Positions 22,947 to 24,472 of a stretch of DNA of 64,000 nt are shown in pieces. The notes below the pieces were generated by a model. The model was not told where the DNA came from. It ran no database searches and saw only the letters and a program-made list of their open reading frames with translations. The stretch is from Meiothermus sp. (GTDB taxonomy: Bacteria; Deinococcota; Deinococci; Deinococcales; Thermaceae). The position numbers and the translations under genes were made by a program. How positions within the stretch are numbered: the first letter of the stretch is position 1; every line of letters starts with the position of its first letter. The stretch lies in NCBI RefSeq assembly GCF_026004075.1, contig NZ_BPIK01000001.1, positions 1,218,041-1,282,040 on the forward strand, written 5' to 3'.

Positions 22947-23294
22947 CTAGCTTGGAATGGTGAGCCGGGTGGGGTTGGGTGTCTGCATAGACTCTTCGCG
23001 CTCCACCCGGCTCACGATTTCCTCGCTACCCAACAGGCTGACCAGTTGCTGCTGGGTTACCAGCTTCCCCCCACACATGTACACCAGGCCCCGCCGCTGG
23101 TGGGTTACAACAAACGGCACTCCGTTGTGATAGCGCACCACCGTGTTATGCCGCCGGGCGTGTCGAACCATGCGCGCAAGGGCCTGCACGTCTCGATCCA
23201 CTTTGTGGTTTTGGGCCTGTGGATACCAGACTGAAAACAAAATAACCATCACCAGGCTAGCCATTATCAAGGCTGTTATAAAGTTGATTTCCAT
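22947..23294 (-). CDS. small membrane protein of unrecognised family, copy 2
   Basis: A 115-residue paralogue of the product of 12051-12407. It has one N-terminal membrane segment (FITALIMASLVMVILFSVWY), a helix with charged residues, then RHNTVVRYHNGVPFVVTHQRRGLVYMCGGKLVTQQQLVSLLGSEEIVSRVEREESMQ and a C-terminal TRLTIPS. Shared positions with copy 1 include RHNTxVR, the VV pair, YM, the glycine before K/E-L/F-V, LG and the EES near the end. I do not recognise the domain. A TATACT box ends 9 nt before the ATG. It is divergent from the tyrosine recombinase and convergent with the SLH protein gene, 24 bp away. Confidence 0.75.
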   Translation of the reverse strand: MEINFITALIMASLVMVILFSVWYPQAQNHKVDRDVQALARMVRHARRHNTVVRYHNGVPFVVTHQRRGLVYMCGGKLVTQQQLVSLLGSEEIVSRVEREESMQTPNPTRLTIPS

Positions 23295-23404: not shown

Positions 23405-23440
23405 CAAAATGCGCACTTATTTTCCTAAGTGCGCATTTTG
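23405..23440. other. dif-like recombination site candidate
   Basis: CAAAATGCGCACTTA (23405-23419) and TAAGTGCGCATTTTG (23426-23440) are perfect 15-bp inverted arms around a 6-bp centre (TTTTCC). Two 11-bp arms around a 6-bp centre is the design of Xer/dif sites, and the arms contain TGCGCA as in the XerC arm of E. coli dif. The site ends directly at the -10 box of a tyrosine recombinase gene, recalling the xerH/difH neighbourhood. A terminator is unlikely because the flanking genes diverge. Confidence 0.5.
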
Positions 23441-23446
23441 TATACT
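23441..23446 (+). promoter_or_regulatory. -10 box of leaderless recombinase gene
   Basis: TATACT, preceded by TG, lies between the palindrome and ATG 23453 with 6 nt to the start codon. A protein bound at the adjacent palindrome would cover the -35 region, so self-repression is plausible. Confidence 0.6.
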
Positions 23447-23452
23447 GAGCCC

Positions 23453-24472
23453 ATGCTGGTACCGCTAGCCAACTGGCACAATCCGAGCAAGCGCAGACTC
23501 GAGGCCATCCGGGCTGCCCACGAGCGCAACCAGGCAGGCTTGCTCGAGCTGCTCGAGGCTTACCTGATACTCAAAGGTCGAAAACGAGCTACCCTGAGCC
23601 GCCGCACGCTGGAAAACTACCGCCTGGCGGTTCGAGACTACCTGGCCTGGGCTTGGTCCGACACGCAGTCGCTGGATATTCTCAAAGCCACAGCCGATGA
23701 CCTTGACCGCTATATCGCCCATCTGCAGGTGCACGGCGGCAACCTGAATAACTCCGAACGCCGCCACCTCAAACCCGGCTCCATCGCTACCTATGTGGCG
23801 GGTGTACGGGCCTTTTACCGGGCGCTGGAGTGGGCCAATGCTGCAACGCTGCCGCAGGTGCCATCGCCCAGCGATCCCACGCCTCCAGAGGAACGCCGCC
23901 CCGCTTTACCGGATAGCCTGTACAAGAAGCTCTTGCAGCACCTATCTGGTCCAAGCCCACATAATACCCGCGACCGCTTGGCCGTACGATTGATGGCCGA
24001 GGCAGGGCTCCGCATTAGTGAGGTAATTAACTTACAGGTGGATGACCTCAGCTTGAACGAACGCTTACTGGTAGTACGAGCTGGTAAGGGTGGTAAACAG
24101 CGCTCGGTGCCGCTCTCCAAAGCATTGGTGCAAGAAATTGAGGGCTGGCTCAGGCTGCGCCTGGCCTATGTAGCCGCTGGAGAACGCTCGCTGCTAATAA
24201 ACCTGGGCGGTCGCAAAGCCAATGGGCGGGCCATGACCGATAAGTCGCTGCGGAAAATACTCAACCGCCACTACCGCGACCTGGGCTTCCCCGAGCGCTA
24301 CTATGGCGCCCACATGCTGCGCCACACCGCCGGAACCCGCTTTTATAAGCTTAGCCGGGATTTACACGCAACCGCCCGCATACTGGGGCACGCCAACGTG
24401 AACACCAGCGCCATTTACGCCAAGATGGATCTGGAAGGGTTATTTGATGTTGTAGACAAGCTAGATGACTAG
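23453..24472 (+). CDS. XerC/D-like tyrosine recombinase
   Basis: A 339-residue site-specific recombinase. The N-terminal SAM-like core-binding domain spans about 25-145 (LLELLEAYLILKGRKRATLSRRTLENYRLAVRDYLAW). The catalytic domain shows the full set: R in AEAGLRISEVINLQ, K in RAGKGGKQRSVPLS, H-x-x-R in GAHMLRHTAGTRF, H in ARILGHANVNTS and the nucleophile Y in SAIYAKMDLEGL. It is larger than typical XerC/XerD (about 300 residues) because of N-terminal residues and an insert of about 25 residues between the domains. No phage or transposon genes flank it, and a dif-like palindrome lies 12 bp upstream. I favour a chromosome-dimer-resolution Xer role, but an integron/island integrase cannot be excluded. 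Confidence 0.93.
   Translation: MLVPLANWHNPSKRRLEAIRAAHERNQAGLLELLEAYLILKGRKRATLSRRTLENYRLAVRDYLAWAWSDTQSLDILKATADDLDRYIAHLQVHGGNLNNSERRHLKPGSIATYVAGVRAFYRALEWANAATLPQVPSPSDPTPPEERRPALPDSLYKKLLQHLSGPSPHNTRDRLAVRLMAEAGLRISEVINLQVDDLSLNERLLVVRAGKGGKQRSVPLSKALVQEIEGWLRLRLAYVAAGERSLLINLGGRKANGRAMTDKSLRKILNRHYRDLGFPERYYGAHMLRHTAGTRFYKLSRDLHATARILGHANVNTSAIYAKMDLEGLFDVVDKLDD

Follow-up and report, generated by a model that had tools for sequence, protein, structure and literature searches.

The window, a stretch of 64,000 nucleotides of Meiothermus sp. DNA, contains at positions 23405-24472 a palindrome, a promoter-like element and a recombinase gene in immediate succession. The palindrome (23405-23440, 36 bp) is fully symmetric, with 15-bp arms and a 6-bp centre. 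Its left arm, CAAAATGCGCACTTA (23405..23419, plus strand), and its right arm, TAAGTGCGCATTTTG (23426..23440, plus strand), form a perfect inverted repeat and are the candidate recombinase-binding arms of a dif-like site, with the centre, TTTTCC (23420..23425, plus strand), as the putative strand-exchange region. The right arm directly abuts TATACT (23441..23446, plus strand), a -10-like element that is presumably the promoter of a leaderless mRNA. Six bases separate TATACT from the recombinase ATG at 23453. The perfect arms, the centre, TATACT and the complete recombinase open reading frame (ORF), as given in the preliminary description, were all confirmed in the window sequence. Its statement that the ATG lies 12 bp later is correct when counted from the start of TATACT; from the end of this element, the distance is only 6 bp. 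Upstream of the palindrome, an ORF of 115 aa (22947-23294, minus strand) is divergent from the recombinase gene and begins with a pilin-like hydrophobic stretch; it gave no Pfam or NCBIfam matches.

The gene at 23453..24472 (plus strand) encodes the single Xer-type tyrosine recombinase P0001 of 339 aa (Pfam PF00589, 1.5e-30). Its catalytic residues, R187, K212, H287, R290, H313 and Y322, were invariant across 25 homologues, which indicates a complete tyrosine-recombinase set. Compared with the profiles of the curated Xer equivalogs, P0001 scored below every cut-off: 132 bits against a cut-off of 220 for XerA (NF040815), 132 against 335 for XerC, 115 against 330 for XerD and 88 against 267 for XerS. 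The closest solved relatives found by sequence search were XerA, XerD and XerH. The matches of the predicted structure agreed with this search, the XerA structures being the best in both sequence and fold; the model was of moderate confidence (pLDDT 79, pTM 0.64), and its matches were taken as no more than concordant with the sequence result.

The 26-bp core of the site was found in none of 100 dinucleotide shuffles of the window, even when 3 mismatches were allowed. Dyads with a gap of 6 bp and 11/11 paired arm bases occurred 30 times in 2.0 Mb of sampled Thermales chromosome, mostly as GC-rich, terminator-like hairpins, and the chance of such a dyad was approximately 0.14% per 95-position upstream window. 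The exact palindrome was present as a single copy in the 3.25-Mb genome. Near-copies were all located in integrative elements and had other centres, so the scattered copies that the preliminary description had named as an argument against a chromosomal resolution site were confined to these elements.

Orthologues of P0001 (54-86% identity) were found in Meiothermus, Calidithermus and the Oceanithermus/Marinithermus-type family, namely in nearly all Meiothermus/Calidithermus-type genomes and in many Oceanithermus-type genomes, and almost all of them had a 15-6-15 dyad immediately 5' of the gene. In 21 aligned P0001-type modules, the arm spacing was always 6 bp (21/21) and the recombinase gene began directly downstream of the site. 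A TATNNT-like hexamer, represented by TATACT in the window, was positioned 0-1 bp past the 15-bp right arm, and in most of these modules the start codon was found 6-7 bp beyond it. The rows L225 and L078 were excluded from this comparison because the dyad finder mislocated their site. No recognisable dyad was present upstream of the more distant homologues L056-L058 and L060.

The arms diverged strongly among lineages, for example, ATGCGCACTTA, TTTCCCCTAA, TTCCCGTTAA and AGTGCGTTTA, with their symmetry being preserved. Over the 21 sites, arm bases were paired in 87% of cells versus 68% in shuffles, two-sided arm changes were observed in 72 cells versus 31.6 expected, and the covariation score was 0.519 versus 0.213 for shuffled arms, a value that was reached by none of 500 shuffles. 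The covariation collapsed when the arm partners were slid out of register. A site that is bound symmetrically by one protein, and that drifts together with this protein, should look like this, with symmetric arms that covary. Comparison of the same locus in other Thermales, which had been proposed as a check, was thus favourable: the junction of the dyad with the -10 element was kept, and the arms carried compensating substitutions. On the other hand, the resemblance of one arm to E. coli dif in the hexamer TGCGCA, to which the preliminary description had drawn attention, is incidental because the arms differ completely among related genera.

The aligned modules also bear on the possibility that the palindrome is an intrinsic terminator or an RNA hairpin. 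Its sequence is able to form a hairpin; however, the -10 element and the start codon come after the dyad in the modules, and the symmetry was kept despite the change of the arms, with the 6-bp centre being variable in sequence. Because the palindrome was not called as a terminator, this explanation was rejected, and it is considered extremely improbable.

The position of the module on the chromosome was expressed relative to dnaA, which is found near base 400 in four complete chromosomes. The P0001 module was located at 51.3% (G026), 53.1% (G003), 50.0% (G013), 63.3% (G100) and 52.4% (G103) from dnaA, and its Thermus counterpart, described below, at 47.6-54.6% in six genomes. Consequently, in 10 of the 11 chromosomes the module was at 47.6-54.6%, within 5.3% of the dnaA antipode (chance 2e-9). 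In the genome of the window (G000), the distance of the site from dnaA is 47% or 52%, according to the way in which the two contigs are joined. GC and AT skew, sampled in 18-20 stretches of 20 kb per chromosome, changed sign at or near the site in five chromosomes. The best change point was 2 kb from the site in G026, G003 and G100; in the last of these, the module is displaced, at 63% of the chromosome, yet still lies at the skew switch. In G013 and G000, the change point was 77-100 kb from the site, with wide intervals. The expected coincidence of the site with the terminus and skew switch was therefore borne out by the sign change in five chromosomes, the change point being poorly resolved in the genome of the window itself.

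This terminal location, which was found wherever the gene could be placed, is difficult to reconcile with an origin of P0001 as a mobile-element integrase, for which the palindrome would be an intact or remnant attachment site. Such an origin might be suspected since a tyrosine recombinase lies beside a dyad and since tyrosine integrases are encoded by several tRNA-targeted elements of the genome. However, the gene is as widespread among Meiothermus/Calidithermus-type and Oceanithermus-type genomes as stated above, and the P0001 branch is separate from the element integrases. In addition, the module has no second, flanking copy of the site, and the genes on both sides of it are ordinary chromosomal genes; for these two reasons the attachment-site reading was rejected. 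An integrase origin is thus very unlikely.

FtsK with a gamma domain was encoded in 9 of 9 Thermales genomes. The motif GGGNAGGG was oriented towards the site at a ratio of 591:360, but ranked 13th of 56 motifs of the same composition. Since its polarity was no greater than that of other G-rich octamers, it was dropped as KOPS support.

Neither XerC nor XerD was found above the NCBIfam cut-offs in 9 Thermales genomes. A second XerC/XerD pair elsewhere had been named as evidence that would count against the assignment; none exceeded the cut-offs in these genomes, although a Thermus-type XerD-like gene with a dyad is present on contig C2 of the window's own genome. This gene (L030, G000 C2:703547-704416, minus strand) encodes a second recombinase with 57% identity to the Thermus terminus enzyme and has the upstream dyad TTTATGGAAA-tcggca-TTTCCATAAA. 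By eye, the ORFs of its region look accessory (transposase-like, restriction-like).

In Thermus, the terminus is occupied differently. A P0001 orthologue was missing from 26 of 27 Thermus genomes, in which just relatives at ~25-32% identity were present. The Thermus terminus holds a distantly related XerD-like recombinase with its own promoter dyad, TTCGCGAAA-GGTACA-TTTCGCGCA, and the counterpart site paired with this recombinase is TTCGCGAAAGGTACATTTCGCGCA. In a tree with long deep branches and an unsure root, the Thermus terminus recombinase was placed apart from P0001 and grouped with Thermus plasmid recombinases. Therefore, the terminus position and the design with the site in the promoter are shared by two different recombinases. 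Own dyads were also found at the plasmid relatives pMtWR-220 and pOCEPR01.

Several further recombinase-related genes were noted. A conserved XerD-like protein of 251-255 aa, lacking much of the N-terminal domain, is encoded by L028 (G000 C1:2377910), L081 (G026) and L076 (G100), and a similar stretch, TTCGCACAAG...CCCCTACAGCGAA, precedes its gene in G000 and G100; the same search listed no counterpart in G003, G013 and G058. The recombinase L302 of the Thermus plasmid pL4C has an imperfect dyad, CTTCGCCAAA-caaatc-TTTTGCGAAT, which runs into GCTATACT and is located ~70 bp before the start codon. Its relatives on T. thermophilus megaplasmids follow a VapC toxin gene, and no clear dyad was seen upstream of these megaplasmid recombinases.

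The near-copies of the site in the window's genome adjoin tyrosine integrases at C1:1540006, 1657946 and 1982438, and the neighbours of the near-copy at C1:2506313, at a contig end, match the same element family. By gene content, these elements are similar to ICETh2, a T. thermophilus element that lies at a tRNA gene, replicates, and leaves the chromosome in circular form (PMC7693054). The arms of the sites borne by such elements and by plasmids were matched to the host. Thermus arms were present in 26 of 27 Thermus genomes and in 0 of 23 other genomes, and elements of G068 and G050 carried these arms. Arms of the ACTTA type were present in 11 of 18 Meiothermus genomes and in none of 32 others. 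Calidithermus-type arms were found mostly in Calidithermus-like genomes, with two smaller G100 replicons among the carriers, and also in a few Meiothermus elements. The element site of G100, AAATTTCCCCTAA-taaggc-TTAGGGGAAATAT, matched the host site at 25/26 positions. The centres of element sites differed from the chromosomal centre within the same genome, and the chromosomal core GGTACA was present exactly once per genome in 23 Thermus genomes. This is the cer/psi-type pattern, in which element arms are matched to the host site and the centre is different.

Two other observations concern the distribution of these sites. The element L261 (G000 C1:2499033) carries Calidithermus-type arms in a Meiothermus-type genome, and this arm type suggests transfer between host lineages. 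A scan of IMG/VR gave one ACTTA-type match and six Thermus-arm-type contigs that showed no similarity to the integrase or recombinase queries; all of these were set aside as probable chance matches.

The element copies are also informative about whether the dyad is an operator only, at which the recombinase or another repressor controls transcription and recombination is absent. Such a function would account for the arm that abuts the -10 element in the modules and for several element copies that lie upstream of a leader/integrase operon. However, an operator has no need for a position at the terminus and skew switch, or for a unique core that occurs once per chromosome in the 23 Thermus genomes. 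Moreover, the distance from the element copy to the integrase was very variable, and among 12 Thermus element copies that were retrieved, 5 had no recognised integrase within 1.5 kb. In L018, the dif-like site (1495-1525) is ~1.1 kb from the leader/integrase genes, which indicates that its place is not fixed by the integrase promoter. An operator without recombination is therefore unlikely, though less so than the terminator and the integrase.

The locus at 23405-24472 is very probably a self-contained chromosome-dimer-resolution module, in which a dif site is fused to the promoter of its sole Xer-type recombinase. This was the main proposal of the preliminary description, and it was supported by the checks of copy number, skew and rival systems. 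Judged by sequence, the module has the features of a single-recombinase Xer/dif module: a terminus position, linkage of gene and site, two arms around a short centre (15-6-15, sites of this class being ~28-31 bp), the catalytic residues and no XerC/XerD pair above the cut-offs in the 9 genomes. Two P0001 monomers would bind the two arms, and FtsK, brought to the terminus at division, would align two sister sites. The resulting tetramer would exchange strands over the 6-bp core, converting the chromosome dimer to monomers. A conserved overlap between arm and -10 element makes autorepression through binding to the site plausible. With the right arm next to this element and the -35 position covered by the core, the bound recombinase would occlude the leaderless promoter of its own gene and limit the amount of enzyme made. 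The matched arms and differing cores are explained most simply if the host recombinase resolves multimers of circular elements at arm-matched sites with private cores, without integration at the chromosomal site.

A broader proposal, which we favour with some reserve, is that Thermales lack XerCD and that the terminus is occupied alternately by one or the other of two single recombinases of only distant relationship, the XerD-like type in Thermus and the P0001 type elsewhere. Each dif would lie in the promoter of its own recombinase and serve as both substrate and feedback operator. With each change of the host recombinase, replicating ICETh2-like elements and plasmids would take up its arm sequence and keep private cores.

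No published dif site for Thermales was found in the literature searched. Term searches of the dif-site surveys PMC3025954, PMC5357621 and PMC2731167 gave no mention of Deinococcus, nor of Thermus in the two surveys in which it was looked for. For D. radiodurans, a 2026 study reported that no canonical dif had been confidently identified (PMC13342612), and only putative dif sites with six candidate recombinases have been described (PMC9764985). The module gives Meiothermus and Thermus a concrete, directly testable site, core and recombinase. It also accounts for a feature that is conserved in the mobile elements of Thermus and Meiothermus, and the recombinase/site pairs form a natural series in which the specificities of both partners have drifted together.

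Among known systems, XerS/difSL of Streptococcus and Lactococcus likewise has a lone recombinase (356 aa), a gene adjacent to the site and a terminus location (PMC5357621, PMC2731167). However, the arms of difSL are unequal and its centre is 11 bp (PMC5357621), whereas the Meiothermus site is symmetric with a 6-bp centre, and P0001 reached 88 of the 267 bits of the XerS cut-off. XerH/difH of Helicobacter and Campylobacter is also a single-recombinase system, in which most species have the site linked to the gene (PMC2731167, PMC5357621). One of the solved relatives of P0001 is XerH, with which P0001 aligned in the sequence search only over its catalytic half; unlike difH, the Meiothermus site is a full dyad directly next to the promoter. 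XerL/dif of Legionellales is similar as a divergent single recombinase where no dif was known (PMC9765430). A mobile element and plasmids of Legionellales carry dif mimics (PMC9765430), but the Legionella element integrates at dif, whereas the Thermales elements have a tRNA-targeted integrase and sites with private cores. XerCD/dif of E. coli shares the 11-bp-type arms and 6-8-bp centre, and plasmid cer/psi sites use the host Xer at arm-matched sites (PMC5357621); it has two recombinases and asymmetric arms, in contrast to the symmetric arms found here and the lack of XerD above the cut-off in 9 Thermales. Archaeal XerA/dif has a single recombinase, and XerA structures were the best sequence and fold matches, but P0001 scored 132 bits against the cut-off of 220, and XerA is described as FtsK-independent (PMC5357621), whereas FtsK-gamma is present in Thermales. 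By this comparison, the P0001 module appears to work like XerS/difSL, XerH/difH and XerL/dif, with P0001 being outside the XerS and XerA families by score.
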